A stretch of DNA of 42,273 bases from a virus, in the IMG/VR virus record IMGVR_UViG_3300043436_002614, positions 1 to 42,273 of that record. The stretch is one strand, 5' to 3'. The translations under genes were made by a program, and so were the position numbers. Under the pieces are notes generated by a model. It saw only the letters and a program-made list of their open reading frames with translations. It searched no databases and had not been told where the DNA came from. Position 1 is the first letter of the stretch; every line of letters starts with the position of its first letter. Shown piece by piece: positions 1 through 22,017 of this stretch.

Positions 1-127
1 AACCTCAGGAACCCTCGCTGTTTTTAAGCGAACAGGATCAAACGGTGCATTTATTGGACTAGAAGACGGTTCTGGTTCTGGATTAGCATATCTTGGAGTT
101 ACCAGCGGAACTTTTGCAATTCAGACT
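1..127. repeat. Exact 127-bp repeat, copy 1 (matches 40028-40154)
   Basis: Bases 1-127 are identical to 40028-40154, and the first mismatch is at base 128 (T against C at 40155). The repeat lies inside the fibre coding frame and is in phase in both copies. A repeat that begins exactly at the window edge and is exactly 127 bases long suggests a de Bruijn graph node (k=127 is a common maximum assembler setting) rather than a biological boundary. Confidence 0.9.
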
Positions 128-958
128 TCCGGCTCTAGTTATTCTAATAAATATACTATCGCTTCCGATGGTACTGCCACTTGGTCCGTAGCTGGCACCA
201 CCGCCATGACCCTCAACTCTACGGGGTTGGGGATTGGTGATTCACCTAATCGCAATTTGGATGTAAGAAAAGACCAGTCCGCCGCAACTATTGCCCGAGT
301 TCAGAATCAATCGGTCAATGCTGCTGCTTATTCTGAAATCAATCTTGCAGCAAGCGGAAATAATTGGGGCATTAGAGTTGGTTCTTCCGCTGCGAATAGC
401 AACAAACTCCAGTTTGTTTTAGATCCGGGTGGAAGCAGCATGATCGCTGCTACAATCGATACGACTGGTAATTTGCTAGTTGCTAAGACTGCGCCCAGCG
501 GAACGACTCTCGGTTGCGAGCTTACAGCAACCGGCGTAATTAACGGTGCATCAGCTAACGCTGACAATCTCAACATTTACAATACGACTGCTGCTGCATA
601 CAGGTTCTATGTCAATGCTGCTGGAACCATCTTCGCCACCAACACGACCATCTCTGCCATCTCCGATGCTCGCTTTAAGGAGAACGTGCAGGATATTGAC
701 GTTGGACTCGGTGCGATTCTCGCTCTCAAGCCGCGCAAGTTTGATTGGAAGGCCGGTAAGGGTAAGAACATTAAGGGAGACAGAGGCTTCATCGCTCAGG
801 AGTTTGAAACCGTGTTCCCGAACCTCATCGACGAGTGGAAGGACGCTGCGCCCGAAGGCGAAGCTCCCTACAAGTCCGTTCGCCAAGACCTTATTCCGGT
901 GCTTGTGAAAGCCATTCAGGAACTCACCGCCCGCGTCCAAACCCTCGAAGCCCGCTAA
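2..958 (+). CDS. Tail fibre with C-terminal S74-type chaperone domain (5' truncated by window edge)
   Basis: The frame is open from base 2 without a start, so this is the C-terminal ~318 residues of a fibre. An internal ATG at 206 is not the true start, because the residues encoded upstream match the complete fibre at 39699-41015. The last ~110 residues carry the S74 intramolecular chaperone signature (SDARFKENVQDI, then KPRKFDWK and GFIAQEFE) and end in a short coiled coil. In known S74 proteins this domain trimerises the fibre and then cleaves itself off. The segment encoded by about 235-500 is quite unlike the same part of the second copy, while both flanks are nearly identical, as expected for an exchanged receptor-binding region. 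The role in host attachment is inferred from the family. Confidence 0.85.
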   Translation, partial: TSGTLAVFKRTGSNGAFIGLEDGSGSGLAYLGVTSGTFAIQTSGSSYSNKYTIASDGTATWSVAGTTAMTLNSTGLGIGDSPNRNLDVRKDQSAATIARVQNQSVNAAAYSEINLAASGNNWGIRVGSSAANSNKLQFVLDPGGSSMIAATIDTTGNLLVAKTAPSGTTLGCELTATGVINGASANADNLNIYNTTAAAYRFYVNAAGTIFATNTTISAISDARFKENVQDIDVGLGAILALKPRKFDWKAGKGKNIKGDRGFIAQEFETVFPNLIDEWKDAAPEGEAPYKSVRQDLIPVLVKAIQELTARVQTLEAR

Positions 959-961
959 TTT

Positions 962-1333
962 ATGATTATCCTCTGGATCATCGAACGCCTTCTCGTTAAG
1001 CCCATCGAAGGCTCTGAAACAAATGTCGTAATCACCGCCGATTGGCGATGCAACGGCACCGACGAAACCTACAACGGCACTTGCTACGGCTCCTGCTCGT
1101 TCCAGCCGCCGTCTGGTGAGTTCACGCCATATCCTGATCTGACGCAGGAACAGGTGCTTGGTTGGTGCTACGCCAACGGAGTCGATCAAGCGGCTATTGA
1201 GGTGAACGTCTCAATGCAGATCGAGAATCAGATCAATCCTCCTGTGATTGCTCCTCCGTTGCCGTGGGTGCCGGTGCCGCCTCCGGTTGTGGTTGCGGAG
1301 CCTGTGGTTATCGCTGACGCTCCCGTCGTATGA
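962..1333 (+). CDS. Conserved protein following the S74 fibre, possible fibre accessory protein
   Basis: 123 residues, starting 3 bases after the fibre stop. It begins with a hydrophobic stretch (ILWIIERLL). A conserved middle follows with a WRCNGTDETY motif, three close cysteines and FTPY, a pattern seen in small phage proteins encoded next to fibres. The C-terminus is proline and valine rich (PWVPVPPPV). The paralogue or variant at 41019-41390 has the same length and most of the same residues. Its role is unknown; position next to the fibre suggests assembly or attachment to it, and this is inference. Confidence 0.65.
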   Translation: MIILWIIERLLVKPIEGSETNVVITADWRCNGTDETYNGTCYGSCSFQPPSGEFTPYPDLTQEQVLGWCYANGVDQAAIEVNVSMQIENQINPPVIAPPLPWVPVPPPVVVAEPVVIADAPVV

Positions 1334-1479
1334 TCAAGATCGAACTCACGCAGGAGCAGGCCAATAGCCTCCTGCAACTCATCGACATCGCGGTTAAGGC
1401 TGGTGGCGTTGCTAACGCCCGTGCAGCCCTTCCGCTTGTGGACCTCATCCTCAACGCAGCACAGCCTAAATCCGAGTAA
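1330..1479 (+). CDS. Small conserved protein, 49 aa
   Basis: ATG at 1330 overlaps the upstream stop (ATGA). The protein starts MIKIELTQEQANSLLQLIDI and looks like two amphipathic helices with no membrane segment. The copy at 41387-41536 has the same length and start and differs mainly in the middle, so selection has kept the frame. Similar short proteins with a TQEQ..L..L..A pattern occur in phages. No function is known to me. Confidence 0.6.
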   Translation: MIKIELTQEQANSLLQLIDIAVKAGGVANARAALPLVDLILNAAQPKSE

Positions 1480-1649
1480 TGGAACCAACGAACAGCAGCA
1501 CCAGCCCTGGACTCAGCCTAGCAGCAGCAGCAGGGGCGACTGCTGCATCATTCCTGCCAATCCTAACCGATTGGGTGCGACTGGTGACCGCTGTGGTTGG
1601 TCTCTTGTGCGCCATCTACGGAGCCTATAGGCTGTTCAAATCCAAATGA
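1479..1649 (+). CDS. Candidate holin, 56 aa membrane protein
   Basis: TAATG overlap with the preceding stop. An N-terminal Ser/Thr/Pro stretch is followed by two hydrophobic segments, roughly residues 12-29 (Ala-rich, ending FLPIL) and 33-51 (LVTAVVGLLCAIYGAY), and a basic tail RLFKSK. Two membrane spans, small size and a charged C-terminus fit a class II holin. The conserved copy is at 41536-41706. No sequence match to a named holin is claimed. The lytic transglycosylase at 22018 is far away, so this is not a classical lysis cassette. Confidence 0.5.
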   Translation: MEPTNSSTSPGLSLAAAAGATAASFLPILTDWVRLVTAVVGLLCAIYGAYRLFKSK

Positions 1650-1846
1650 AAAACACAAAAACAACTCTCGCTGGTGTTGGTGCAATCCTCGTCGCTGTTG
1701 GTGGTGCCCTTCGGGCTGCCTTCGACGGTGACGCAAGCACCAACATCGACATCGCTTCGACCATCGCCGCGGTGACCGCTGGTATCGGCCTCATCCTGGC
1801 TAAGGATGCCACCGAGAAGCCTCTGGTGATCGAAACTAAACCGTGA
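1646..1846 (+). CDS. Small two-span membrane protein, 66 aa (second holin-like candidate)
   Basis: ATG at 1646 overlaps the preceding stop (ATGA). Hydrophobic segments lie at about residues 8-25 (LAGVGAILVAVGGALRAAF) and 37-53 (ASTIAAVTAGIGLILA), separated by a short polar turn with a DGD motif. The product could be a holin, antiholin or other inner-membrane protein. The copy at 41703-41900 is nearly the same up to the last dozen residues. Having two adjacent small membrane genes is compatible with a holin/antiholin pair, but nothing in the sequence assigns the roles. Confidence 0.5.
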   Translation: MKNTKTTLAGVGAILVAVGGALRAAFDGDASTNIDIASTIAAVTAGIGLILAKDATEKPLVIETKP

Positions 1847-2016
1847 ATTGGGTCTACCAGATCCTCAAGGCTCTGCTCGACTGGATCCGAGAAACACCAC
1901 CTACCGATGTTCAACACGGCCAAGCGCCTCAACCCCTCAAGGATGATCTGGCTGCTCGTGTTGCCGATCTGCCTGGGTTGCCAGATGACCAGGGTGGTCC
2001 TGGTTCCAAGCGGTGA
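1843..2016 (+). CDS. 57-aa protein overlapped by the lipoprotein gene
   Basis: GTG start at 1843 inside GTGA. The protein begins MNWVYQILKALLDWIRETP, an amphipathic helix, followed by a Pro/Asp/Gly-rich tail. Its 3' two thirds lie in another frame under the lipoprotein gene starting at 1907. The copy at 41897-42070 keeps the same length, start and stop. The nested arrangement recalls Rz/Rz1 spanin pairs, but this protein lacks a clear membrane span and a long coiled coil and is short for an inner-membrane spanin. Confidence 0.5.
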   Translation: MNWVYQILKALLDWIRETPPTDVQHGQAPQPLKDDLAARVADLPGLPDDQGGPGSKR

Positions 2017-2140
2017 TCCGGTAATGCTGGCCAAGCCTACAACGGCCAGCGTCTATGCTTTCGATGCCGATAAGAAGCTGGTCGGGCCATCCACCGTCAC
2101 TCTGCCGGCAGGTTGGTATGTTTTACCGAAGAGCCAATGA
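1907..2140 (+). CDS. Small lipoprotein-like protein (possible outer-membrane spanin analogue)
   Basis: 77 residues. After a basic N-terminus comes a hydrophobic stretch (MIWLLVLPICLGCQ, residues 13-26) ending in a loose lipobox with Cys at residue 25. The mature part contains a VPSGDPVMLA motif and ends PAGWYVLPK. The lipobox residue at -3 is Cys instead of the usual Leu, so lipidation is uncertain. The gene starts out of frame inside the 57-aa gene, as Rz1 does in Rz. The copy at 41961-42191 is well conserved. The start at 1907 is chosen because it aligns with 41961; ATG at 1943 is possible. Confidence 0.6.
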   Translation: MFNTAKRLNPSRMIWLLVLPICLGCQMTRVVLVPSGDPVMLAKPTTASVYAFDADKKLVGPSTVTLPAGWYVLPKSQ

Positions 2141-2385
2141 TCAACTACAAGGGAAACAAGTTCTCGGGCTATAACAAGCCCAAGGCCACCCCCGGCGAAA
2201 GCAAGAAGTCCGCGGTGCTCGCTAAGGAAAACGGCAAGGTTGCCCTGGTGCGTTTCGGCGACCCGGGCATGACCATCAAGAAGCACATCCCGGATAACAA
2301 GAAGAGCTTCAACGCCCGTCACGGCTGCGACAACCCCGGCACCAAACTCTCCGCCAAGTACTGGGCCTGCAAATCCTGGAAGTAA
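2137..2385 (+). CDS. Small basic conserved phage protein, 82 aa
   Basis: ATG at 2137 overlaps the lipoprotein stop (ATGA). The protein is rich in Lys and Gly, with FSGYNKPK near the start, a central VRFGDPGM, then FNARHGCDN and a C-terminal SAKYWACKSW. This pattern is familiar from small proteins of many environmental phages (DUF6321/DUF5872-like from memory) whose function is not established. There is no equivalent after the second cassette copy, where a fibre gene begins at 42193 instead. Confidence 0.65.
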   Translation: MINYKGNKFSGYNKPKATPGESKKSAVLAKENGKVALVRFGDPGMTIKKHIPDNKKSFNARHGCDNPGTKLSAKYWACKSWK

Positions 2386-2388
2386 CCA

Positions 2389-3312
2389 ATGAGAACCGTC
2401 ACCTACGACTATGTCCTGCAACGTGCCTGTGAGCTCACTGGGCGCGTTTTCTCATCGCTAACGACCGAGGAGTCCAATCTCTTCCGCACGTTCATCTCCA
2501 TGTCACTGAGGAGCGCTTGGGAGTGTTTCAACTGGCCCGAGCAGACCGTGTATCAACAGGAGTTTTTTGCGGCCAACTACAGCGCGGCGCAGGTCTACTC
2601 CGGTGGCATGGTGGTCTACTACCCCACCGAGCAGAAATACTACCAGTACGTTGGGGCCATCAACTCCAACAACCCTCCGACTCTCAACGGACCTGGAGGT
2701 ACACTGAACTCCCAATACTGGGGGATGGCACAGCCGAGCTACGGCAGCACTGCGACCTGGGACACGACGACCGTCTACAACATCGGCGACATCGTCCTGT
2801 ATCCCGAGGACCAGGAATACTACCAGCTCTTTGCGACTGCTTCCGCCGGAACTGTTCCCACCAACGCTTCCTTCTGGGGACAACTGAACAAGTTCCTTCG
2901 ATACGTCAACCAGCAGACCAACCCAGATGGGACTACCCGGGCTGTTCAGATCGGCGAGACCTTCTCGGTATGGCCTGCCGATCCTCGGATCACCTGGAGG
3001 CAGCAGGAGCCAGCCTACACGCTCACCGACGATGGCATCCTGGTGGGTGAGCAGCTCCCGTTTGTCTGGATTGAGTTTCGTAAGAGCCCTCCCCTGCTGT
3101 CGACCGCTGGTGAGGCGACCGCCTATGCTTTCCCATACAGGTTCTGCGAGGTGTGCAGTCTCAAGGCAGCCGGCCAGATGCTCCGGGTAGATGGCAAGGT
3201 CGACCTCGGGAACACCTTCCTTGAGCTTGGTGAAGTCGAGCTGACCAAGGAGATCGACAAGGTAGCTCTTCAAGAGAAGTATGTGCGCCAGATAATTGTC
3301 CCAGGTCGCTAA
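2389..3312 (+). CDS. Tail tubular protein A-like (gp11-type) adaptor with two CBM5/12-like inserts
   Basis: 307 residues. The first ~50 residues and the last ~100 are helical and resemble the podovirus adaptor that links the portal to the nozzle. In between are two similar segments, about residues 68-118 and 125-172, each with the Y..G..V.Y...Q.YYQ pattern and a final W (YWG, FWG). This resembles small carbohydrate-binding modules of the CBM5/12 type. Assignment as an adaptor rests on size, helical ends and position immediately before the large tail protein. Alternatively it could be another virion connector protein. Confidence 0.55.
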   Translation: MRTVTYDYVLQRACELTGRVFSSLTTEESNLFRTFISMSLRSAWECFNWPEQTVYQQEFFAANYSAAQVYSGGMVVYYPTEQKYYQYVGAINSNNPPTLNGPGGTLNSQYWGMAQPSYGSTATWDTTTVYNIGDIVLYPEDQEYYQLFATASAGTVPTNASFWGQLNKFLRYVNQQTNPDGTTRAVQIGETFSVWPADPRITWRQQEPAYTLTDDGILVGEQLPFVWIEFRKSPPLLSTAGEATAYAFPYRFCEVCSLKAAGQMLRVDGKVDLGNTFLELGEVELTKEIDKVALQEKYVRQIIVPGR

Positions 3313-3313
3313 T

Positions 3314-6300
3314 ATGCCCGACTTACCCGAGATAATGTCGGTCGACGATGGCTTCAAGGGAGTCATCTCGCGCTTAGATCCTGCCCAGGTGCCGGCGCAG
3401 TACGTCAGCCAGGCGATCAACCGAATCTTCCAGAATCAGCTCATCACGAACAGGTGGGGCATTGTGCAGCCCAAGTGGGGCGGTAAATGGAGCACCTCCA
3501 CGCGCAATGTCACGGTAACCTCAAACTCACAGACAACGATTGTCGTCAGCGGAACACAGATCCCCAACAACACGATAATCTGCTCGGACTCTAGCGCAAA
3601 CTCGTTGGTGTTTCCTAATGGCACGCGCTGCTTGTTTGATGACAACACCAACTGCGTGATGTCCTCGGCGGCCATCTCTTTTGCAACTGCTCCGATTAAC
3701 AGCAACATCCAGTTCTATTCTGGAACTAATGCATTCACCGACATCCTCGGTGTGCTGCCTTTCCGCGATCCTGACACCGGCTACCAAGCCCTAGTTGTAG
3801 CCACCAACGAGGCCCGTACATTGGCAACAGAAGATGGCGGTCAGGGCCGGATGTATCTGGTACGACCCAACCAGTCGGACCTGGAGATACCGCTAAACGG
3901 GCACGACATCTACAGCCCGGTGCGTTTGATGCAGGCGACCAATGCGGTGGTGATGTTGAGGCCTGGCAATGCCCGGTATTACTTCACCGGCGCTGATGTC
4001 AATGTGGCCAACAGTACGGTGACTCTAAACGTCCCACCTGACATGGAGTCCGGTGATCGGATTGAGGTTGTTCAGGTTGGTGTGGCTCCAAACCTGTGGA
4101 AAGTAGCATCGACCACAGCCGGACAAGGCTTCGCGATGTTCGTAAACGTGAAGGGCGGAGGAGTCTGCACGTTGCACCTAGCTCAAGGAGCCGCTCAAAC
4201 CGGATCATCTCCGGTTGAACTTACGTCCGGTCTCACTAGTGCCAACCGGTACTACTTTGAGCTGTCAAACAACACCACCGGGTACGACGTAACGCAGGGC
4301 GTCAGCGACTTCTACAACGACGGCTTACCGTTGATAATGGAGGCCTCCTACAATGCTGGCGTGCCTATATCGGCGCTGGATAACGGTTTCAACCGGATTG
4401 CATCGGTCAATGCTATCGTAGCGTCATCAATTACGGACGACACGATCACGGTCCCGAACCATCCGTTTGTTGCCGGTGATCAGGTGACCATCAGTAATGT
4501 ATCTGCAGGTGTTTCGAACGGAATCTACTACGTATTCCCTACTGACAAGAACTCGCTAAAGTTGTTTAGCGGATCTTCCGAGGAGCTTGATTCTCTCAAC
4601 ACGGCGGCAGTCGCTAACATAACCGCAACAGCCAGCGCAGTTACTGCCACTGGGACAGCAGTGCTTTCAGGGGCAACGGTTGGCTCAATCACTCTGGGAA
4701 TCGGTGGTGCTGGTTACGCCACTGCTCCAGGTGTTTCATTTTCAGGCGGCGGTGGAAGCGGTGCTGTGGCTACAGCAACCGTCTCTGGCGGTAAAGTCAC
4801 CGGGTTTACCGTGACAACACCTGGATCAGGGTACACTACGCCTCCAACGGTAACAGTTGTTGCTCCTGCTGGCCCTGGTGTAACTGCCTTGACCATCGTC
4901 AATCAGGGCGCTGGTTACGTGACCGCACCAGTCCCGGTAATAACTGGCGTAACAGGTGCAACCGCAACCACTACCATCACTGACGGCAAGGTCACCGCGG
5001 TCACTATCACCAACCCGGGGCATACCGCTACGTCAGTGGTTGTGACCGTACCCAAACCGTCGACTCTTACGGAGATCACGTCCGACACTATTACTGGCAC
5101 GATCAAGAAGTCCTCTGCCTCCGGTGCCAACGTCCCTGCTGGCCGTGAGGGCCTGTACTTCCAGAACCGCCTGCTGCTTCTCTACGGTCCCGACTACCTG
5201 GCAGTGTCCGACGTGCTGGATCCGCTGCACTACAGCCCGATCCTGAATGAGTTTAAGCTCAACACCGGTGCCAATGACGCTGTGGTGGCCCTGTACCCGT
5301 TCAACACGACCACGCTGATAGTCTTCAAGGAACGGTCTATCTTGGCTGTAGAGAACCTCTACGGCGACCTGTCGACTACCCGGCTCACTGAGGTTACCAG
5401 GGAGTTTGGATGCATCAGCCAGGCGTCTATTGCGTCTACCGGGTCAGACATTGTCTTCCTTAGTCAGCGCGGTGTAATCAGCCTCAAGCAGACCGAGTTT
5501 GGCATCAGCCAGTCGGTGGTGCTGCCGCTGTCGGATCCGATTCAGGATGTCATTGAAGAGATCGACCAAGCCAACTGGGAAAAGTCATGTGGGGCCTATT
5601 TCAACAACCGGTACATCCTGAGCGTCCCGGTGGAAGGTGGCGACGGGACAAACCAACGCACCCTAGTCTACAACTTCCTCAACCAAGCGTGGGAAGGATA
5701 CTGGGAAGGCTTGCTGCTTGTTCCACGGTATTACACTCGGCTGGTGGTCGCTGGCACCGACACGCTCTGCTGGGCTGACAACAGCGGGTTTATCCACAAC
5801 TTCGACTATCAGGCGCTGCAGGATCGCAATCGTGTAGGCACGATCCAACAGATCGCCACCTCGGTCTCCTTCCGGGGCCATAGCGGTGACAAAAACCCCT
5901 ATTCTCAAGGCAGCCCAACAAACAACAGCGTCGAACACAAGCAGTGGACCAACCTGCAGTTTGAGTTTGCCTCATGGAATCCGACTTATTCAATCACTGC
6001 CAACTTTGATGGTGTGAATGAGTCCTACCCGATTGCCACTAACGAGACCAAGAGCCGCACGGCCTACTACATCTATGGCAGCGGAACCTACGTCACCAAC
6101 AACTCCGGGAACAACTTCCTCGACCCATATCGCGAGGATTACTCTACATTGCCGGGTATTCGATGTAACACTGCCGGATTCCAAGCGGGGCTTGTACAAT
6201 CGTTCTCGCAGAAGGCTCGCTTGCGCCGCCACTCCATTACCATGCAGCCTGTGGTTACCACTACCACCGGTGCGTTGAATATCTACAGCGTCAAATCCAT

Positions 6301-6340
6301 CGCAATCCCTTTCCGACTCTACGGCAAAACCGACGTCTAA
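3314..6340 (+). CDS. Large tail protein, tail tubular protein B-like nozzle
   Basis: About 1008 residues from ATG 3314; a TTG at 3296 is in frame but lies within the previous gene, so I prefer the ATG just after its stop. N-terminal and C-terminal parts are beta-rich and resemble beta-propeller nozzle proteins (for example the segment containing NRLLLLYGPDYL and the later FKERSILAVENL). The middle, encoded by about 4430-5110, holds an inserted block with two copies of an Ig-like GxGYxTxPxVxxxG repeat common in phage surface proteins. It pairs with the upstream adaptor as gp11/gp12 do in T7-like phages. Naming is by context and fold impression. Confidence 0.6.
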   Translation: MPDLPEIMSVDDGFKGVISRLDPAQVPAQYVSQAINRIFQNQLITNRWGIVQPKWGGKWSTSTRNVTVTSNSQTTIVVSGTQIPNNTIICSDSSANSLVFPNGTRCLFDDNTNCVMSSAAISFATAPINSNIQFYSGTNAFTDILGVLPFRDPDTGYQALVVATNEARTLATEDGGQGRMYLVRPNQSDLEIPLNGHDIYSPVRLMQATNAVVMLRPGNARYYFTGADVNVANSTVTLNVPPDMESGDRIEVVQVGVAPNLWKVASTTAGQGFAMFVNVKGGGVCTLHLAQGAAQTGSSPVELTSGLTSANRYYFELSNNTTGYDVTQGVSDFYNDGLPLIMEASYNAGVPISALDNGFNRIASVNAIVASSITDDTITVPNHPFVAGDQVTISNVSAGVSNGIYYVFPTDKNSLKLFSGSSEELDSLNTAAVANITATASAVTATGTAVLSGATVGSITLGIGGAGYATAPGVSFSGGGGSGAVATATVSGGKVTGFTVTTPGSGYTTPPTVTVVAPAGPGVTALTIVNQGAGYVTAPVPVITGVTGATATTTITDGKVTAVTITNPGHTATSVVVTVPKPSTLTEITSDTITGTIKKSSASGANVPAGREGLYFQNRLLLLYGPDYLAVSDVLDPLHYSPILNEFKLNTGANDAVVALYPFNTTTLIVFKERSILAVENLYGDLSTTRLTEVTREFGCISQASIASTGSDIVFLSQRGVISLKQTEFGISQSVVLPLSDPIQDVIEEIDQANWEKSCGAYFNNRYILSVPVEGGDGTNQRTLVYNFLNQAWEGYWEGLLLVPRYYTRLVVAGTDTLCWADNSGFIHNFDYQALQDRNRVGTIQQIATSVSFRGHSGDKNPYSQGSPTNNSVEHKQWTNLQFEFASWNPTYSITANFDGVNESYPIATNETKSRTAYYIYGSGTYVTNNSGNNFLDPYREDYSTLPGIRCNTAGFQAGLVQSFSQKARLRRHSITMQPVVTTTTGALNIYSVKSIAIPFRLYGKTDV

Positions 6341-6343
6341 CCT

Positions 6344-7309
6344 ATGCCACTCTTTGTAACCGTCACGCCAGGAACCACCGTCACCAGCTCCACCACGCTG
6401 GATGCGTCCACTCTCAACCTGCTAGGCACGCCCAGTGTCGACGTCACCGGTACGGTAGATGGTGGGTCGATAACGCTCGGATCTCAGTCTGTACCACTTC
6501 CTTCGTTATTCGCTCAGAACGATCAGACAATAGTTGGCAACGGGTTAGGAACAGGTGCAAGCCCGGTAGCGCTTACGACGACCGACTTAGTGCTGACGGC
6601 AACGACCGTCAATATTAAGGATGGGGCTGTTACTGCGGCTAAAATAGCCACTAACACGATCACTGCCGATAAGCTGCTGCAAATTGATGGAACCACCCCA
6701 AAGATACTGGGAAGATTTACCACGGCAGTCGGAAACATTGAGACCAACCTAAGCGTTGGATCTAACCTTACTACGACTGGGAGTACGCTGAATGCGTTGA
6801 GGCCGGCGGTTGCTTCAACAACTGTACTTGCACAATCTGGTTATGGTGTTCCAACCACAAGGGCTACTCCTCAGGAAATCACCCCACTTACAACGTCAAT
6901 AACCACTCAGACAGCTACGTCAAAGGTGCTTGTTACGTTTAATATATCGTATGCGCTTTCCGCTCTTGGAGCAAACTCTACAAAATACGCATTCATATTA
7001 ACACGCACTGTTGCAAGCGTTGAAACAGAACTTGCAATACCTACAAGTCCTCAAGCCCTTCAGGTTTACGGAATTAAACCTGTCGGCATGAGCTTTTACG
7101 ACTACCAACAGGTGTTTGATTGCATCCAGTTTTTAGATTCACCAGGAGCTGCTGCATCCGTAACATATAAACTAAAGATTTATGGCAGCACTCAAATCAC
7201 ATTAGCTTCAACCACTGGGTTTTTCCTAAACAGAACCAGCGCTGACGGAAATTTAGCTTACGCTACCCGCGCCACCTCCCAAGTAATCCTCCAAGAGATC
7301 CTGCCTTGA
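6344..7309 (+). CDS. Virion appendage / fibre-like protein, 321 aa
   Basis: Starts 3 bases after the nozzle stop. The N-terminal ~150 residues are Thr/Val/Gly-rich beta repeats (for example DGAVTAAKIATNTITADKLL and SVGSNLTTTGSTLNA) of the type also present in the fibre at 17732-21100. The C-terminal ~150 residues form a different domain ending in a Thr/Arg-rich strand region and are more AT-rich than the N-terminal half, suggesting exchange of the distal domain. It is probably a short fibre or head decoration; no enzyme motif is seen. Confidence 0.6.
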   Translation: MPLFVTVTPGTTVTSSTTLDASTLNLLGTPSVDVTGTVDGGSITLGSQSVPLPSLFAQNDQTIVGNGLGTGASPVALTTTDLVLTATTVNIKDGAVTAAKIATNTITADKLLQIDGTTPKILGRFTTAVGNIETNLSVGSNLTTTGSTLNALRPAVASTTVLAQSGYGVPTTRATPQEITPLTTSITTQTATSKVLVTFNISYALSALGANSTKYAFILTRTVASVETELAIPTSPQALQVYGIKPVGMSFYDYQQVFDCIQFLDSPGAAASVTYKLKIYGSTQITLASTTGFFLNRTSADGNLAYATRATSQVILQEILP

Positions 7310-7722
7310 TTCCCCTGATCACAGACTACCTGCTGCACAAGCTCCCGGACAGCTTTCGAGGCTGGACCCGTGAGGCTGTGGAGGACTATGTGATGTTTCA
7401 TGCCGAGCAGAACACGCTCAAGGTGGCCCTGCAGGACGGGCACGTTGTCGCTGTGCTTGTAGGCTGGAGGCAGATGGGGCCGGAGCCTAAGGAGTGGACC
7501 TGGCAGAAGTCCGATCCCAATGGCGACCATTGGTACTGGCACCAGTTCGCTGCCGACTGCGCACTATTCGCGATGGCGGTGGCGGCTAAGTTCTTTCACG
7601 ACGCACCGGAGTCGGCAATCCTCCCGGCTATCGGTTATCGCAACGGTAAACTAACCACCTACAAGAAAGGCTCGATGCCGATCTATAGGATGGCAGACAA
7701 AAAATATGGGAACCTCAGTTGA
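7306..7722 (+). CDS. 138-aa protein, possibly GNAT-like
   Basis: A TTG start at 7306 overlaps the previous stop (TTGA) and is preceded by AAGAGA. The first ATG would remove 28 residues of sensible helix. The protein has a GWRQM turn after a VALQDGHVVAVLVGW strand pair, a HWYWHQFAADC segment and a YRNGKL region. The strand-strand-helix order is reminiscent of N-acetyltransferase-like proteins found among podovirus virion genes, but the acetyl-CoA loop is not clear. Function unassigned. Confidence 0.5.
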   Translation: MIPLITDYLLHKLPDSFRGWTREAVEDYVMFHAEQNTLKVALQDGHVVAVLVGWRQMGPEPKEWTWQKSDPNGDHWYWHQFAADCALFAMAVAAKFFHDAPESAILPAIGYRNGKLTTYKKGSMPIYRMADKKYGNLS

Positions 7723-8503
7723 AGCACCAACACCACGGGATTACGGCAAGGAAACCGCTGACACACTCCGATCTCAGCTTGCCCTAGCGCCCGAGAAGTA
7801 TGCTGCCGAGGCTAAGTATGCCCCGCAGTATCAACGGCTGCAGCTAGATATGCTGAAGTCGGCGACCCCGGAGCTGCTACAGCTCTACCGGGACCAGATC
7901 GCGCCGGCCATGGGCGAGGTCGAGGCCGCCGCACGCTCCCGTTCCCGAGCTGGCGACATTGCCGACATCTCAACTCTCGGTCCCCAGGCGCGTGCTGCAA
8001 TCAAGGCTGCCTCGCCACAGCAGGCAGCACTAGCTGACAGTCTTACCGCCCAAGCTCAATCCGGTCTCAACGCTGGCTCCCGGCTAACGCCCGAGCAGCA
8101 GCGCCAGGTCGAGCAGCAGACCCGAGGCTCCTTTGCTGCCCGAGGCCTAGCAGGAAGCCCCACAGCCGGCCTACAGGAGGCTGTGCGCTCCCAGCTATCT
8201 GGAGCCGGAATGCAGCAACAACGCTCCCAGCAGGCCATGGGAGCCCTCGGGGCATCCCAAGGTGTGTATGGCGACGTGTTCCAACAGGTGTTGGGCAGGC
8301 CGTCCCAAGCATTTGCCGGGTCTCAAGGCTTCCTAGGCCAGGCCCAAGGATTCAACCCTGGGCAGTTGTTCAACCCCGAGTCGCAGTACGCCGCCAACTT
8401 GATCGGTGGTAACCAGCAGCAACAGCTTGCTGCCCGTACTGCTTCTGCAGCCAACTCCACCGCACTCATTGGTGCCGGTATGTCAGCGGCCTCTAGCCTA
8501 TGA
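7706..8503 (+). CDS. Ala/Gln-rich internal virion protein
   Basis: 265 residues, starting inside the 3' end of the previous gene. It is mostly helical, with high Ala, Gln, Ser and Gly and repeated Q-rich stretches (SRLTPEQQRQVEQQTRG, then FAARGLAGSPTAGLQ). The FxxRGlxxSptagl pattern recurs in proteins encoded between nozzle and giant internal-virion genes of many environmental podoviruses. I infer it is a packaged protein ejected with or around the DNA. No catalytic motif is visible. Confidence 0.55.
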   Translation: MGTSVEAPTPRDYGKETADTLRSQLALAPEKYAAEAKYAPQYQRLQLDMLKSATPELLQLYRDQIAPAMGEVEAAARSRSRAGDIADISTLGPQARAAIKAASPQQAALADSLTAQAQSGLNAGSRLTPEQQRQVEQQTRGSFAARGLAGSPTAGLQEAVRSQLSGAGMQQQRSQQAMGALGASQGVYGDVFQQVLGRPSQAFAGSQGFLGQAQGFNPGQLFNPESQYAANLIGGNQQQQLAARTASAANSTALIGAGMSAASSL

Positions 8504-8862
8504 ACTACGGATACCAAGGATCCATGCCCTACGGCCAGGGCGGTGGCATGAGTCAGTTTGCCCCCCAGATGCCTGCAATGCAGCCCGGCACCGGTTATGG
8601 TGCCCCGATGCAGCAGATGAACCCCATGAACACCGTTGCGGATGTCGAGGAACAGCGCAAACGGCTCAAGGCACTTGGCCTGGACGATTCGTTCATTGAC
8701 GATGCTTTTGAGATGAAGCAGGGGATGTTTGAGAAGCGGGATGAGATGAAGGGCCAAGCCCTGGAGGCTATTGGAAGCGGTCTCAAAAGCGCCGGCAGTG
8801 GCATTGCAAGCGCCGCCTCTTCTGCTGGCTCTGGATTGGCTGGACTAGCATCTTCACTTTGA
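8500..8862 (+). CDS. Small Gly/Met-rich virion-cluster protein, 120 aa
   Basis: ATGA overlap with the previous gene. The N-terminal 45 residues are Gly/Pro/Met/Gln-rich low complexity. A charged helix follows (VEEQRKRLKALGLDDSFIDDAFEMKQG) and then a Ser/Ala/Gly-rich C-terminal stretch that could form a glycine-zipper helix. The company of internal-virion genes suggests a minor ejected protein. Not recognised as a named family. Confidence 0.5.
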   Translation: MNYGYQGSMPYGQGGGMSQFAPQMPAMQPGTGYGAPMQQMNPMNTVADVEEQRKRLKALGLDDSFIDDAFEMKQGMFEKRDEMKGQALEAIGSGLKSAGSGIASAASSAGSGLAGLASSL

Positions 8863-9188
8863 TCCAACGATACCAGCGATGCATTGGACTCAAGCTCTTC
8901 AGGTTCAGATCCTGGCAGCTTGAGGCCTGGTGCTGCCCTGCTGGCGAGGTTATCCCGTCGCACACACACCAGTCATTCAGCTCCCGGATCATCCATGTCC
9001 TAGGGAGGATGCGTTGGACGATGGGCAACAAGTCGAAGCACGTCACCACCTGGCACTGTGGCTGGTCTAAGCCGGTGCCTGCCGGTGTGAGTCATTCAGC
9101 GGTTGCAGACACTTTCTCGGTGTTCCTGAACCTTGAACGGTGGCAATCCAAGCCGACATCTGCTGCAATCGACTTTCATCCAGCATGA
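8859..9188 (+). CDS. Cupin-fold protein, 109 aa
   Basis: The start is TTG at 8859 in TTGA overlap; no better start exists. Two cupin signatures are visible: motif 1 with His35-x-His37 (PSHTHQSF) and motif 2 matching G(x5)PxG(x2)H exactly, from Gly68 to His79 (GWSKPVPAGVSH). The motif-1 Glu is not obvious, so the metal site would be three His at most. Cupins include dioxygenases, epimerases and sugar-binding proteins; the substrate cannot be inferred. The gene is translationally linked to the next one and sits inside the internal-virion cluster. Confidence 0.6.
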   Translation: MIQRYQRCIGLKLFRFRSWQLEAWCCPAGEVIPSHTHQSFSSRIIHVLGRMRWTMGNKSKHVTTWHCGWSKPVPAGVSHSAVADTFSVFLNLERWQSKPTSAAIDFHPA

Positions 9189-9607
9189 ACAAGCTCGGCC
9201 AGCTCTACTTTGACGCAGCAGGAGGCAACCACAACGCAGTGGTGTTCATCACTGCCTTCCATGCCTATTGCCATTCCATCGACGACCTGATTGATGGGGA
9301 TGTGACTTTTAGCCCTGAGGCATTCCTGGATATCTTGATGCAGGCCAACAGCCTCTACTCGACCCCGTTCTACATCGACAACTGGTTCCGGCTGCAGCCC
9401 GTGATAGCCATGATCACCAGCACCTACGCAGATTCCGTTGCTTGGGAAAAAGCCGATGAGGAGTGGAAGCGTCAGACAGCCGATGTCCTACGGCTCTGTG
9501 GCAACGACATGATTCTACAAGTGGCTTGGATAATCGGTGGTTACAAGCACATGAGGGCTATCAGCTTGAAGTTGCGGGAGTTCGCATACCATTCTCAACA
9601 CAGCTAA
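9185..9607 (+). CDS. All-helical conserved phage protein with HSIDDLID motif
   Basis: 140 residues from ATG 9185, in ATGA overlap with the cupin. An in-frame start at 9140 lies within the cupin gene and is less likely. The motif HSIDDLIDGD at about residues 26-35 resembles the Asp-rich DDxxD metal site of all-alpha isoprenoid synthases. Later parts (SVAWEKADEEW, GGYKHMRA) are also typical of a small phage family I recall only as hypothetical. At 140 residues it is far too short for a complete isoprenoid synthase, so a catalytic role is doubtful. Confidence 0.55.
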   Translation: MNKLGQLYFDAAGGNHNAVVFITAFHAYCHSIDDLIDGDVTFSPEAFLDILMQANSLYSTPFYIDNWFRLQPVIAMITSTYADSVAWEKADEEWKRQTADVLRLCGNDMILQVAWIIGGYKHMRAISLKLREFAYHSQHS

Positions 9608-9611
9608 ATCT

Positions 9612-11090
9612 ATGGCACAATACGGCTACTCAACACCTTACAGCGGTCAACAGGTTGCGCCATTGCCTCCGGGCTACATGGAGGCTGCTACGGCTTCCGG
9701 CCGCAATCTGGCGATGGGCATCACCGCCATCGGTCAAGGCCTGGGCAAGGCGCTGGAACGCTACACCGAGAACAAGAAGGCGCATGAGGCTGCTGATCAA
9801 ACGAATACCGCGGTGACGCAGATGTTCCTGCAGCAGATGGAGGCTGATCCAAAGGTGCAGGCTGTGCGATACTTTGAGGACACCGGCCAACTTCCCGCAG
9901 GTGTGGATGAGACGACGCTGAAGTCCTACGAGGCTCAGATGAAGCGTGATGCCGGGATGATCAGCAACTTGGTTGGAAGCAGCGCCAAATGGGCGGACAT
10001 GAGCCTGACCAAGAAGAAGGCTGCGCTCGGTGATACCGTGACGATGCTCAACCAGTATCGGAACAACCAGCAGGACGATTTCAAGAACGAGGCGACTAGG
10101 CAGCAGTTGGCGATAGGTGCGTTGCAGTTGGGACAGGCTCAAAGAGAGGCAACTGCCGCTCCGTTTTTCACGCAGGCGCTTTCCGACGTCATGTCAATGC
10201 AGCCCGGTCAGGCTCCTTCCGTTCCGTACTCCAACGTGACGCAGGAGATGCTTGGAAAGTACGGCGACAAACTGACTCCGACCCAGATGCAGTCGTTGAT
10301 TCCAATGATGCGCAGGATGGGGCAGACTATTCCTGCAAACATGACTGCGCTCGGTGCGACTATCGGACCCGAGGGGACCAAAGTGGAATACGGATTGCCG
10401 GCTACGGTCACCTCTATGCCTGTCCCAGGCACTGACTACGTTCAGCCAATGATTTCAGGGAAGGCAGCCGGCGCACCAATTAAAGCTCAACCAAAGATTC
10501 AGGCCGAAATTGATAAACTTCCTGAAGCCCAGCAGAAATGGGCAAACGATACACTTAGCGATATTAATAAGAACCCGCAAATCAAGGCAGTTGGAGAACA
10601 GTTCAAGAATCTGATGGAGATAAAGGAACTGGGAACAACCCCTTCCGATGATATTGCGCTGATCTTCAAGTACATGAAGACGCTAGATCCCACTAGCGTT
10701 GTCCGTGACAACGAATTCCAAACCGTAGGAAACGCTGGAGGTCTTCCTACTCAAATTCAAAACATCTACAACAGCTACACCACCGGAAACAAGCTGACCC
10801 CTGAAATCCGGAGAGATATCAAAAAGTCTGCTGACTCAATCGTGCGTGGTTCGCTCAAAGCTGTTGAGTCGACGATTAGTGATACTGTAAGTCAGGCGAA
10901 GTATCGTGGAGTGCCTGAAATGCTAATCCTTCCTGAGAGCTCATTGAAGGCGTGGAGGTCAATGTCTGCTCAAAGCGCTGCGGAATCTATGCAGCGTTTC
11001 CAATCGCCCGAAGATATGCGTGCTCAAGGCATTAAGCGCGGCCTTGTTTTCAATCCTGCCACCGGGAAATACCAAGAATTTCAAGACTGA
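9612..11090 (+). CDS. Internal virion protein, 492 aa
   Basis: A mostly helical protein rich in Gln, Ala and Lys, directly upstream of the giant gene with 3 bases between them. The N-terminus is Pro/Gly/Tyr-rich, then long helices (ITAIGQGLGKALERYTENK). A C-terminal segment with FKYMKTLDPTSVVRDNEF resembles a motif widespread in podovirus ejected proteins, usually followed by variable helical sequence. I infer a component of the internal core, ejected into the host with the DNA. Confidence 0.6.
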   Translation: MAQYGYSTPYSGQQVAPLPPGYMEAATASGRNLAMGITAIGQGLGKALERYTENKKAHEAADQTNTAVTQMFLQQMEADPKVQAVRYFEDTGQLPAGVDETTLKSYEAQMKRDAGMISNLVGSSAKWADMSLTKKKAALGDTVTMLNQYRNNQQDDFKNEATRQQLAIGALQLGQAQREATAAPFFTQALSDVMSMQPGQAPSVPYSNVTQEMLGKYGDKLTPTQMQSLIPMMRRMGQTIPANMTALGATIGPEGTKVEYGLPATVTSMPVPGTDYVQPMISGKAAGAPIKAQPKIQAEIDKLPEAQQKWANDTLSDINKNPQIKAVGEQFKNLMEIKELGTTPSDDIALIFKYMKTLDPTSVVRDNEFQTVGNAGGLPTQIQNIYNSYTTGNKLTPEIRRDIKKSADSIVRGSLKAVESTISDTVSQAKYRGVPEMLILPESSLKAWRSMSAQSAAESMQRFQSPEDMRAQGIKRGLVFNPATGKYQEFQD

Positions 11091-11093
11091 CCT

Positions 11094-14000
11094 ATGCCAT
11101 TCGTTGAAGGCGGAATTGTTGTCGATGAAGAGCCACAGCAACAGGCCTCGCCTCAGATGGCGCAAGGCGGTTTTGTGCAGGGAGGAATCGAAGTCGATCC
11201 CACGCCTGAGGACTCTTATAACAAGGTGCTGCAGTTTCAAGGAGCGCAGACCGACTACACCCCGAGCAAGCAAGAGTTTCTCGACTACCTGAAGGTATCC
11301 AAGACCAAGCCACTGCTGGGCGAGAAGCCACTGGAAACCATTGGCACCGCTGCCGTCCAAACGGTGGAGGACATTGCCTCAATGCCTTACAAGCTGGGCG
11401 AGGCCATTGGGCAGTACATGGACCCTCCTGAAGGCGTCACACCGATGCAGCTTGCCGGTGGAACCGCTGCAGAAATCGCAGTCCAATCCAGACTCAAGGC
11501 CGAGAACATGGGCCGCGGACTGATCGACACCGCGCTGAACAAGCTGTCGGACATTACCGGAAAGCTCCGCAACGACGACGACAAGTACGAGGCCTTCCTT
11601 GCTGCTGCTGAGATCAAGCGGCAGTTGGCCCGTGCCAATGCACCAGGAGACCAGCGTGTTCCTGCCTCTCAGGATGTCTTGCAGGCCTATGGCATTCCCG
11701 AGGAAGCAATCAGCCAGGAGGGCCTTGATGTCGGTGGATTCCTTGCTGACCCGTCATCCATTGCTTTTGCCGGCGGTGGAAAGCTGGCGTCTGCATTGGC
11801 GCAGCGTGCTATCCCGCTAATCCCTCGGGCAGGGCAGATTCTCCAACGCACTGGCGAACGCATTTCAAACCTAGGCCGCGGCCCCGAAAACATAGCAGGC
11901 AGAATCACTGCCGGAGTCACTGGATCCGAGCAGATGGGTCAAGCGGTGCAGGAAGGCATCGCCAAAGGAACCACAGGAATCACCTTGGGTGAGGCTGCTG
12001 GCATCCCGCTTACCATGAATGTTCCTGGTCTAGGAACTGTTGCTAAGACAATCACTGCAACCAAGGGCCTAGGAGGGACCATGGAGACCGTTGGTGAGGC
12101 TGGAACTGTATCCGGTGGTCCAAGCCTTACGGCGACCCAGCGCGGCCTTCTGGGGGCTGGCGAGCGTATTGCCGCGGCTGAAGGCGCATCATCTAGGGCT
12201 CGGGCCTTAGGCACCGCTCTCGCCAGGAGCGGCCTTGAGACTCCGATAAGGGGAGCAGCAACGATTCTTTTGCCCATGGCAGGTGCTGGCGTTGCCGGCG
12301 GTGCCCTCGCTGCATTGACCGGAGAAGAAGGCGATGCTGTTGCCGCGGCTATTGGCAGCGGTGCTGGCTTTGGCGTTTTTGACGGTGGGTTCACGCTCGC
12401 TAAGGCTGTTCAAGCCAACGCATTCAATGGTGGGCGTGTCCGACAGACCGCGGTGGATGATCTCAACACTCGTCCCACCGACGTGCAGTTCACCTACATT
12501 GACCCGGTGGCCGGTGAGCAGACTGCGACCATCAAGGATTCCGAGGCACGCGCCACCCTGTACGGACGCCTCAACAACAAGCAGCTCACTAAGGCGCTGT
12601 CCGAGGTTGCAGGTGCTGAAGGCGCTGGAGTCGATGTCATCTTCCACACCGATGCAGACACGGTCCCTGCTGGACTGCAGAACGTGAATTATGCCGGTGT
12701 TGCAATCGGTCCCGACAACATCAAGAGCGGAAAGCCGACGATCCTGATTAATGTCGACAAGGCCAGCCCCGAAGCACTCCCGCATGAGATCCTGCACGCA
12801 CGCATCACGCAGGACATGGTGAGTCAGCTTGGGGCTAAAGCCATCGACACTGCCTCTGCTGATCCCAACTTCCAGAGGCAATTCACCGACTTCGCTAACA
12901 AGTACGCCGACAAACTACAATCGGCTGGTGGGCGCGTGGTTGCTGACCGCATCCGCACTGAGCTCCGGGATGCTTTTGATCCTGCTCAACAACGGGCTCA
13001 AAAGGTTGAGTCTCTTAAACGCATCACCGATGAGTTTGCCGCGTACTACACGCAGGAAATGCTCAAAGGCAAAGACCCGAAGACGATGCTTCCGGGTCGC
13101 ATTCCTTCCTTCATTGAGATGGCGCTGAACAACGCCAAGGAGGCTGTTTCGGAACGGTTCACTAGGCGTGCATTGCAGGCTGGTTTCGACCCTGTTGCCC
13201 GTACCTTCTACGACGCCAACGGACGGCGCATCAAGCTCGACTGGATGGAGGATGCCATCAAGAACCTGGTGACTCCGAAGGAGGGCTATGAGCCCACCGA
13301 GCAGCGGGTCGACATCAACAAGATGACCCAGGCGCAGCAGAATGCGGTCATCATGGCCCGAGGCTACTCGGACCTGTTTATGACTGCCCCAGATGGCAGT
13401 ATCGTCAGGCCGTTGTCTAAGGCTGAACTCGCAGCCAAAACTGCTGACATAGCTAACCGCACGATGCGTGTCGTCGAGTCTGTTCCTCAGGCTGAACGCA
13501 CCAGCATCTCGGGCATGGATGCCTACGGAAACCCGGTCATCGAAGGAAGACTTAGCCTGGCCGAGGCCGATGCAGTATCAAAGAGCGGTATATTCGGACC
13601 ATCCTCTTCTAGGACACTGATCGACATCGCCACCGCAATCCGGGATGGCACGTTGATGGAAGGAAACTACTGGAAGGTCTACGGATCCACCGGGAAGTCT
13701 GGCGTGTTTGACGAGTCCCAGAAGCTGTTCCTGCCCTACGGCATCTCGATCAACAGCAAGGGCGGCGTCAACGTCAAGGTGGTCGACTGGGGCAAGGTGC
13801 AGGCCCGGATGTACAAGGCTCTCACCAAGCCGGCCTACAAGAGCCTGTTCAACAACTACGACCAGGCCATGTCCACGATGCGTGACGTGTACCTGAAGAA
13901 CATTGCTGAGACCGGTGCTGTGCCTTCCGCTGAGGCGCTGGGTGGAGGCATCGATGGCGCTAAGAAGCGCAATATGTTCAACGAGATCATGGGTGCAGTT

Positions 14001-17000
14001 CCCAAGAAGGGGGACGTCATGGTCAACTTCCCGACTGCCGGCTACGTCGCCAACCGCAAGGGAGGATCGGTCTATCAGGATCTGCGTCTTGAGCGCATCC
14101 AGAATGCCGACTCCACTAAGGCTCAGATCCCCTGGACAGGCGACATGGGCGAGCAGTCGAGCTACCGCCGCACTCAGCTCAACTTCATGCCTGCAGAGGC
14201 CATTGGTGAGACCAGGGTCAGCACCGATGAGAATGGCGGTTATCGAATCTTGTCGAAGAACGGAAAGTTCCGCCTGTACGGCCCCGATGGATCAACCGTT
14301 GGGATCTTCGACACTCAGGAACAAGCCAAACTCAAAGCAGAAAAAGATTATGCCACTCAAACAAGGCTACAGCCAGAAGTCCGTCAGCAGCAACGTCCGC
14401 TCGGAGATGAAGGCCGGCAAGCCGCAGAAGCAGGCGGTCGCAATCGCGCTGTCGGTGGCCAAGAAGGCCAAGTCGAAAGCGGGGCGGTACGACAAGCGGG
14501 GGATGTAAGGTTCATGCCGGCTGAAGAGGAGGCGGCCAGAAAACAAGTTGCGGAAGGTCTTCCCCGGCGTGCATCTTTTGAAGCTCCAGGAGTTTCAAGG
14601 GATCAAAATGGAAACATCTACTTCAAAGGCAAAGAACCGAAAGACTGGACTCCAAAGGAGTTTGAGGAATACGGCAAAGCATTCGGCGTCGAAAACCTTG
14701 GACCTCTTTCAGAAATCACAAACATCCCCTCGGACGTGGCTGGAGATCCTGCGAGAATACCCGGCGGCCTTGAGGGCAAGTTCACGTACTACGATCTCCT
14801 CTGGCTCAAAACCAATCCGGTCGACGTAGCAAACCTGCCAGAGACCACGCACGCCAAGCTGACAGCCAAGCTGGCGGCGACAATGGCTCCCACACCTGGT
14901 GACAAGGTTTCCAGCTTCAACTCCATTGTCTTCGGGATGCTCTCCCCGAATGCTCCGTTGCTTCCCAATGAAATGGGGATGGCACGGTTGCGGTTTGGTT
15001 CGATGGAAGATGTGCGCAAATTTGCCAGTCTATACCCAGAGAACCCGACTAAAGAAAACCTGAAGGAGCTGAACCAACGACTCAAAAAGGAGCTAGGGTT
15101 CATCTCCGCTGGCAAGGGTGGCCTTGGCATTGCAATCACCGCGGACATATCGAACATCGTAAATGCCGCTCGGTTGTTCACCAAGAACCCAGACTTCTTC
15201 GTCAAAAAATCCAACGAATCTTGGGCAGACTTTGTCGACAAGCTGACAACTCAAATCAAAGGGTTTGGCACCAAGACAGGATCATTTGGATCTGTGTGGC
15301 AAGATCCGCTCAAGGCATCCATATCGGCCATGGACCGCCACATGGCTCGCATCTTTGGCCAGGAGCTGCTTGGAAACCCAGAGCTCCGCAAACGGTTTGA
15401 AGGCATCGTTGTCGACCGTTTCAATTCGATGCTGAAGAAGTCAAAGGAAGCCACATCGGCTTTCAATCGCCGGCTCAAAAATGCCGAGGAAAAAGGTAAG
15501 CGCATTGAGGAGATCAACAAGGACGACCCGAAAACGCTCAAGACGCTAAAGGCCAAAAACGATAAACGCATCAAGAGCATCAAAGCCGAAATGGCATCCA
15601 CCTTGGATTCGTTGCCAGACCCAACGGCAACTCGGGCAAAAACTATTGATGACGTTCTAGGTCAAGCGCAAATCTACGGTGCTGATCGCGTCCAGAAATT
15701 CGTCAATGAGGCCGTGTTTGCTGCCATGGGCAGCCGCAAGGCAACGCTGATAGCCAAGAAAGGCGGCATCAACCCGAATGCTCCGGCGAACATTAAGTCG
15801 GTGGAGTGGGTTGAGACTCCAAAAGACTTCCAGGTAATGTCGGATTCCTACCGCTCAGCACTTGAGATCAACGAGCGCCGGGCAAACGAGCTTGGCGTTG
15901 CTGTCTTCCCGGCTCAATGGACCCTCTGGGATCGCATTCGGGGACGGGTTGAGCCGCATGAGGTCATGTTCCCTGGGCTCGACAAATTGCCTGCCTTGAA
16001 CGACCGGCAACTGGGCGAAGCGCAGAAAGCAAACAAGGCTGCCGGATACGGAAGCACGCCGGAGGCAGGCGAGAAATGGAAACGAAAGCAAATTGACTCC
16101 CCCTCTCGACTGGCGTATTTCATGCCAGCAGGCGAGGGAGAAAAACTTTATGAACAAGGACGACCCGAACAGGGAGGAGACCGAGGAGGACGGCTACCGC
16201 GCGGAAGCTATACGCCGCTTGATGGTGCTCCGAATGTCGCGGGTGCGACCGGACCAGCGCCAGGACTCGTGGATGTTGCGAGATCTTATGCCGCTGCCGC
16301 CGGGATTTCCCACCGGCGACAAGCCGTCTACGTCGAAGTAGACGAGGCCCGAGCTCGGCGTCTTGCCGATGCGTATGCGGAGATGAAGCACGCACCTCAA
16401 GACCCTAAGGTCCAAGAGGCATACGCGGATATGATCCGCCAGACAAAAGATCAGTATCAGGCACTTGTTGACGCTGGGTACGAGTTTAGTTTTTTTGATA
16501 GTTCCAGCGACCCGTATAAGGGGAATCCATCAGCAGCCATGCGTGACCTTCGTGCGAATAAACGCATGGCTGTATATGGCACTTATGACGGCTACGGAAC
16601 GGAAGGCATTACAGGAGCGGAGATTAAAGGCAACCCAATGCTAGAGCCAACCGGGCTCACCTGGCCAGATCAGCGTGGCGTCATGCATCCTGTAGTGGCA
16701 AACGATCTGTTCCGAGCTGTTCACGATGCGTTTGGACATGGATTAGAAGGCGCAAGTTTCCGAGCGCGAGGCGAGGAAAATGCATGGCAAGCTCATGTCC
16801 GGTTATTTACCGGGCCGGCCATAGCAGCAATTACCAGCGAAACCCGCGGTCAAAACAGTTGGTTAAATTACGGTCCTCATGGCGAACGTAATCGAACAGC
16901 AAAACTTGAGGACACTGTGTTTTCTCCGCAGAAGACCGGACTCATGCCGGATTGGACTTGGACCGAAGGCCTAGCACCGGACGAGGGGGCTTCTGTTGAG

Positions 17001-20700: not shown

Positions 20701-21100
20701 CCGGGTGCTTGGGCGCAGCACGGCAGGCACAGGCAGTGTGGAGCAGCTTACGCTAGGGTCAGGCCTGTCGCTGAGTGGCGGCGTGCTAAACGCTGTTGGT
20801 ACGGGCTCAGGCAACGTGGTGGGGCCATCCTCGTCCGGCATAAACAGGATCGCTAGGTTCGTTGATACTACCGGAACAGAGATCGGACCCGGTGCTTGGT
20901 CAGATGACTCCACCGACTTTTATGGAACGGCTGGAGCAACAACGATGCAGTTCGGATTTGCGTGGATTCCGGCTGCCTCAGGTGCGCCCACCGGAGTTGT
21001 ATCGCAGGCAGGAACGCTCACCGGACGTGTTCCGCTTTACTACGACACGAACAGTGAGACACTCTACGTCTACACTAGCTCGACATGGAAACCAGTCTGA
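17732..21100 (+). CDS. Long tail fibre with collagen-like segment, 1122 aa
   Basis: GTGA-like overlap with the giant gene (ATG 17732, TGA ending 17735). Residues ~1-30 form a short coiled coil, then a beta domain to ~190. A collagen-like run of Gly-X-Y triplets (GAPGPAGPVGPAGPPGPAG) lies at ~197-215. The rest is a chain of beta repeats with units such as SGTNTGDQTITLTG, followed by VTYDKIQ or VTYGKIQ, and AASGTVTGSNLSG. A middle element with TESGDYILETG resembles repeats in the 39458 product. The end (NSETLYVYTSSTWKPV) resembles a small C-terminal fibre cap. It is a trimeric host-recognition fibre by all appearances. Confidence 0.75.
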   Translation: MSYDSQTSTTLINRLRKDVDSLTLKVAVLTDSKTSGTSGGNGVATTWSTRTLNTIAVDPNGLILDLTANQFKLAAGAYQIRAMAAFLHTGHTRIRIYDVTASAEATASAGSPVDVIIGYGVSVDVSNQSNTYNDINVRVQPHKDNVYRLEYYISAAGADHLGVAAGLTGIPEIFAICEITRLDTGLTKPSGGSGIQGAPGPAGPVGPAGPPGPAGGGTVTQVSVVTANGVSGSVATSTTTPAITLTLGAITPTSVTASGAISAGATVTGSNLSGVNTGDQVIILSGDRMLTEGSDFLITESGDYILETGDVTGQGTGRIPAVITPQAVTYDKMQYVSATDRLLGRQSAGPGLIEEITCTAAGRAILDDASAADQRTTLGAVPVGPITTSGLTVVTANRLLGRVNSAGAVEEISLGTGISFAGTVLSATGTGGTVTNLTVTPSDGITASVGTSTTTPAISLGLGAITPTSVASTGTVTGTNLSGTHTGTSSGTNTGDQTITLTGPVTGSGTGSFATTITNGAVTYDKIQSTSAIKRLLGSDDTGNSVQEIILGSNLSMTGNTLSASAPGTGTVTSVNADGSTTGMSFTGGPITTSGTLTLGGTLALTNGGTGATSAATALTSLGAYPAANPSGYTSNAGTVTTTSVVTANGVSGTVANDTTTPAITIVLGAIVPTSVAASGTVTGSNLSGTSSGTNTGDQTITLTGDVGGSGTGSFAATIAANAVTYGKIQAVAASSKLLGSTASGTAVAEITLGTNLSMTGSTLNAAGGGGGGTVTSVGVSGAGLGVTNPNTTPVISQSAASSVNDGFMSIAYASKLDGIAAGASVTSVAASGGTTGLSFTGGPITGSGTLIMNGTLNADSGGTGHTAPTVNGLLLIGDAVDEEWDKATLTAGTGITITNGQGSITIAATGSGSGDVVGPSVSVDGDVAVFNGTTGKIIKVGTTTGTGNLVRATSPTLVTPVLGTPSSGTLTNCTFPVAIQNTGITCATARVLGRSTAGTGSVEQLTLGSGLSLSGGVLNAVGTGSGNVVGPSSSGINRIARFVDTTGTEIGPGAWSDDSTDFYGTAGATTMQFGFAWIPAASGAPTGVVSQAGTLTGRVPLYYDTNSETLYVYTSSTWKPV

Positions 21101-21116
21101 GCTTTTGCCTACCCCC

Positions 21117-21949: not shown

Positions 21950-21954
21950 TTTAG

Positions 21955-21985
21955 CCCCGGGTGGGGCAAATACCACCCCTAGGGG
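21955..21985 (+). terminator. GC-rich stem-loop after the zinc-ribbon gene
   Basis: CCCC (21955-21958) pairs with GGGG (21982-21985), and GGGTGG (21959-21964) pairs with CCACCC (21973-21978) around the 8-base loop GGCAAATA, leaving a 3-base bulge. It begins 5 bases after the upstream stop. No T-run follows, so termination would be inefficient; RNA end protection or control of the following lysis gene is also possible. Confidence 0.4.
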
Positions 21986-22017
21986 CGCGACTGGTTAACG
22001 CGCACACTTTCCAAACC

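Follow-up and report, generated by a model that had tools for sequence, protein, structure and literature searches.

We propose, with a probability of roughly 0.94, that the 42,273-base IMG/VR virus record IMGVR_UViG_3300043436_002614 (G000), which was analysed in its entirety and is called the window below, is a chimeric assembly in which one phage, phage X, has been lapped and a tail from a second lineage, lineage Y, has been attached to it through a shared stretch of 131 bp by a wrong exit from a k=127 node. The error type is already known and is the kind made by metaSPAdes with a largest k of 127, namely a chimeric overrun. Three findings place the window in this class: its exact k-base start (127 nt) recurs internally at 40028, a separate record (G001) connects the point of recurrence to the contig start, and the sequence following the recurrence comes from a different genome, being 100% identical to the Y contig L005 over 1,690 bp and then entering a gene found only in lineage Y. 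Four points are demonstrated here: 40027 joins to 1, X and Y are identical over 131 bp, the tail has the character of lineage Y, and each contig end lies at a 127-mer branch point. No feature beyond 40154 should be assigned to phage X.

As the first-pass annotation had reported, positions 1-127 equal 40028-40154 exactly and the two copies part at the very next base (128/40155, T/C); an exact repeat of 127 nt in 42 kb cannot be due to chance. It had further been described that the copies are diverged versions of one another with the same gene order. This is correct for 449-2132, where the copies are 83% identical and gene order is kept, but the divergence is uneven: identity is 97% over 1-239, positions 240-448 in the middle of the fibre gene are unrelated, and beyond 2132/42186 the left and right copies carry different, unrelated genes. 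The features of phage X on which the argument relies are the following.

1..40027, + strand: complete phage X map (G001 join; large terminase, capsid, scaffold, helicase and fibre genes by profile search)
39699..40027, + strand: 5' part of the X tail-fibre gene (X-specific start, found elsewhere only in G001 and there continuing into window base 1)
1..958, + strand: 3' three quarters of the X tail-fibre gene (open frame over the join; contiguous in G001 with 0 mismatches)
962..2140, + strand: small-gene, probable lysis, cassette of phage X (ORFs)
962-1333, + strand: DUF7936 protein of the X cassette (DUF7936, E=5e-23)
1646-1846, + strand: small membrane-like protein of the X cassette (ORF)
1907-2140, + strand: signal/lipoprotein-like protein of the X cassette (ORF)
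2137..2385, + strand: X-type gene MINYKG... after the cassette, absent from the right copy (32/34 X-family loci)
32553..34259, + strand: large terminase subunit (Terminase_6N, E=1e-10)
37697..38764, + strand: major capsid protein (phrog_1328 major head protein, E=9e-38)

That the small cassette genes act in lysis is probable, given their position and the features of the predicted proteins.

The strongest evidence for the join comes from a scan of IMG/VR with a 29-mer taken at the end of the repeat, which matched five contigs. One of these, G001 (IMGVR_UViG_3300042868_003415, 32,041 bp), corresponds over its full length and with 0 mismatches to window 31610-40027 followed by 1-23623. Because G001 runs straight through, the join of 40027 to 1 is real, and the X-specific fibre start leads to window base 1 and not to 40155. 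G001 is likely an independent assembly, although it may stem from the same or a related sample. When 40027 is joined to 1, the fibre gene forms a single open frame with its stop at 958, and thus the proposal that the frame stays intact across the join is upheld. A related capsid gene was found at 80 loci. At 34 of them, not counting G001, the capsid gene, the cassette and gene 2389 follow one another as expected from the join, and in 32 of these 34 X-family loci gene 2137 (MINYKG) lies between the cassette and gene 2389. In none of the 34 was a second copy of gene 1907 found, nor, in the region that they span, the MGTP gene of lineage Y discussed below. Several relatives of phage X close on themselves at 36.7-39.9 kb and are opened at different genes. 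Based on the join in G001, the single-cassette relatives in the predicted order and the self-closing relatives, we conclude that the map of phage X closes at 40,027 bp.

Phage X is therefore a tailed phage whose genome is complete, its 40,027-bp map running from 1 to 40027 and closing back onto base 1; with large terminase, major capsid, scaffold and fibre genes on a closed map of about 40 kb it belongs among the Caudoviricetes. This agrees with the earlier suggestion of a complete genome of about 40.0 kb, for which the mismatch-free passage of G001 over 32,041 bases is the direct evidence, and a homology check of the head, terminase, helicase and fibre/lysis genes bore out, for these genes, the statement that each phage module occurs once. 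A closed assembly map would be obtained equally well from a circularly permuted genome and from a linear one that carries a direct terminal repeat. A real tandem duplication, in which two fibre/lysis cassettes lie on one molecule and the contig is a true linear segment of some larger genome, would explain why both cassettes are found on one contig; however, in G001 no second cassette could fit at the join that it crosses, no X-family locus has gene 1907 twice, and both contig ends are exact 127-mers, which is not expected of a biological end. We rejected this explanation, which has practically no probability left, on the strength of G001 and the single-cassette relatives.

The right-hand part of the window belongs to lineage Y, and the following features describe it together with the two contig ends.

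40024..40154, + strand: 131-nt stretch common to X and Y, the fusion point (exact match to L005 and L007, with mismatches on both sides)
1..127, + strand: last 127 nt of the 131-nt X/Y stretch, a k=127 out-branch vertex that makes an artificial left contig end inside the X fibre gene (identity to 40028-40154; graph)
40155..42273, + strand: foreign Y-lineage tail, with the remainder of the Y fibre gene (to 41015), the Y cassette genes and the start of a Y-only gene (identity to L005)
42196..42273, + strand: 5' end of the Y-lineage gene MGTPLTGSSVASTYTG..., cut by the contig end (35-nt start in 40 IMG/VR contigs)
42147..42273, + strand: last 127 nt of the record, probably a second 127-mer branch vertex (suffix match to L029)

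Window positions 40024-41713 (1,690 bp) are 100% identical to the Y contig L005, and the identity to a second Y contig, L007, extends up to 41670. In both contigs the start of the fibre gene differs from that of phage X. Upstream of it, their counterparts of X genes 39201 and 39458 have diverged to about 38 and 42% identity. Around the fusion point, exact X/Y identity is limited to the 131 bp at 40024-40154. L005 and L007 diverge from the window after 41713 and 41670, respectively, and none of the records held a Y phage identical to the tail through 42273. The exact first 35 bases of the Y-only gene at 42196 (MGTPLTGSSVAS...) occur in 40 IMG/VR contigs, and this MGTP gene is carried by 39 Y loci. 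No recognisable capsid, terminase or portal gene of phage X was found in any of these 39 loci; in the Y contigs, the counterparts of X genes 3296 (27-31% identical) and 6344 (34-38%) are remote, and one Y genome closes on itself at 36,139 bp. Examining the backbone beyond the variable cassette gave the same result: it is not X-like, and the Y-only MGTP gene follows the cassette of the tail.

These findings bear on the interpretation given in the first-pass annotation, according to which the features after 40154 come from a co-occurring relative, a strain variant of phage X. That these features belong to another molecule stands. The variant part does not: the retained gene order over about 2 kb with 83-97% identity outside the mid-fibre would be consistent with an overrun into such a variant, as would the pieces of the right copy's last small gene that some close X relatives have, but the right copy is identical to Y contigs over 1.6-1.7 kb, the tail runs into a gene that 39 Y loci carry and no X-family locus has, and in the close X relatives L059, L061 and L062 it is the X-type gene that follows the cassette. 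The absence of recognisable X capsid, terminase and portal genes from the Y contigs, together with the remoteness of their versions of 3296 and 6344, means that the overrun does not lead into an X strain variant. We therefore rejected this candidate, very improbable as it has become, because of the match to L005 and the Y-only gene at 42196.

The exact lengths of the repeats point to the assembly graph. We computed a k=127 de Bruijn graph from L005 and the junction region of G001; it has two branch vertices, one at window 40024, where X and Y merge, and one exactly at window base 1, which equals 40028, where they part. At the other end, the Y contig L029 matches the final 127 bases of the window and differs from it at 42146, and since this match is exactly 127 bases long the right end is probably a second branch vertex. 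Contig-end recurrences of exactly 127 nt were seen in 10 of the 27 long contigs checked (8/19 X-family contigs, this record included, and 2/8 Y contigs), at different genes, which would not be expected of a biological repeat. The value of k was itself deduced from such 127-nt recurrences in other contigs. It has been reported that metaSPAdes leaves end sequences of maxK length at branch points (PMC10914622), and a bbcms/metaSPAdes workflow with k up to 127 has been described (PMC12993620). Taken together, the branch at window base 1, the 127-nt match to L029 and the 10 of 27 contigs substantiate the earlier reading of the 127-base repeat as a de Bruijn k-mer node.

The chimeric overrun could have arisen as follows. 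Through past recombination, the fibre genes of X and Y would have become identical over the 131 bp at 40024-40154, and a Y phage presumably lived in the same sample as phage X. With the putative assembler and a largest k of 127, X and Y would collapse into one short node. The assembler would then open X at the branching end of this node (window base 1), go once round X, re-enter the node and take the exit of Y instead of that of X, after which the Y path would be walked for 2,119 bases to the second branch at 42147-42273, where Y relatives diverge. Alternatively, the tail could belong to a real recombinant that combines X head genes with Y fibre, lysis and tail genes, has its crossover in the 131 bp and co-occurs with phage X. 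Such crossovers have happened, as X, Y and a third lineage have near-identical fibre pieces, and contig G031 likewise passes from X into Y-type genes near the fibre. We nevertheless consider this quite improbable, because outside the window the X-specific fibre start is present in a single IMG/VR record, G001, where it leads to the X cassette, and because a mis-walk in the graph accounts for the exact coordinates without a new phage.

The window is not the only contig of this kind. Overruns into diverged copies were found in G006 (1,047 bp, 96%), G012 (483 bp), G009 (2,723 bp), G013 (370 bp) and G020 (429 bp). A first or last k-mer that recurs internally at exactly 127 nt was seen in the window, G006, G012 and the Y contig G023; G009, G013, G020, G031 and G032 are other overruns. 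G031 (locus L186, IMGVR_UViG_3300044623_000711, 40,625 bp) is an X-type genome with X-type versions of 39201/39458 at one end and Y-type versions of these genes (39%, 46%) near the fibre at the other, and is thus a mirror image of the window chimera. G032 (locus L188, IMGVR_UViG_3300044547_000229, 43,889 bp) is an X-family contig with two fibre regions, whose last 3.2 kb (40,682-43,889) have no counterpart among the X genes and may derive from a further lineage. In the window, G009, G020, G031 and G032 the overrun lies at the fibre/lysis cassette, which takes up little of the genome, although the overrun tally comprises eight cases picked by the searches and is not a survey. The fusions mark the cassette as a place where lineages share DNA, which fits the idea that such sharing has been recent.

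The underlying biology is ordinary phage mosaicism, in which lineages trade fibre/lysis cassettes. With a third lineage, Z (G003), exact identity extends over 130 bp in the case of X, and over 213 and 568 bp in that of the right copy. The contigs L004, L006 and G003 of this lineage have a fibre block and cassette common to X and Y, and hardly any other DNA match to X. One extension of this picture, which we regard as unlikely, is that the cassette travels as one block between lineages whose capsid and packaging genes are unrelated, that the 131-bp X/Y and 130-bp X/Z stretches are crossover sites and that real X/Y recombinants circulate beside the artefact. A literature search for a mobile fibre/lysis/S74 cassette found nothing relevant. 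The run of early genes at 24264-25673 is a second exchanged module: these small genes are common to several Y-lineage genomes at about 82-95% DNA identity while the capsid and packaging genes are unrelated, protein identity to lineage Y reaches about 96-97% at 25171-25683, and exact common stretches are up to 118 nt long (at 24319).

In simulated viromes, chimeras of co-existing phages with highly similar regions made up <5% of large contigs (Roux et al. 2017, PMC5610896). The window likewise fuses two co-existing phages artificially at a region of high similarity; in contrast to those chimeras, its fusion also laps a complete circular genome and so hides both the completeness and the chimera. 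It also resembles the maxK contig-end overlaps of de Bruijn assemblers (COBRA, PMC10914622), in that a contig-end sequence of exactly the largest k recurs at graph branches, but the 127-mer stands at one end and internally rather than at both ends, and a simple end-to-end circularity test therefore misses the window. If the record were taken as it is, a complete genome could be rated a linear fragment, and phage X would be annotated as having two fibres and two lysis cassettes. Testing whether the first or last k-mer recurs internally would find lapped records of this kind. The record serves chiefly as a caution, and it draws attention to the swapping of tail fibres among viruses.

With regard to known phages, megablast of window 1-20000 matched no deposited phage. 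The closest deposited phage found, Phage C75C1 (OQ984151.1, 39,484 bp, circular), is a distant relative (terminase 29.6% over 85%, capsid 28.9% over 97%) with the same order as phage X of terminase, unnamed genes, capsid and then tail genes; a literature search found no paper on it. The IMG/VR relatives G006-G022 have capsids 78-94% identical to that of phage X and the same gene order, and several are closed at 36.7-39.9 kb, whereas the mid-fibre and the cassette differ between relatives. A capsid search of bacterial and archaeal genome contigs found no relative and hence named no host or prophage. Within the 5' part of the X fibre gene, 39834-39948 holds two 46-nt repeats (83%), and this stretch also occurs in Y-lineage fibre genes. 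Two adjacent genes of 2,213 codons (11094-17735) and 1,122 codons (17732-21100) are very large for a 40-kb phage and have almost no family matches. The second of them contains three diverged 75-nt direct repeats (18416-18490, 19061-19135 and 19679-19753), about 0.6 kb apart, which suggests that the protein has repeated domains.
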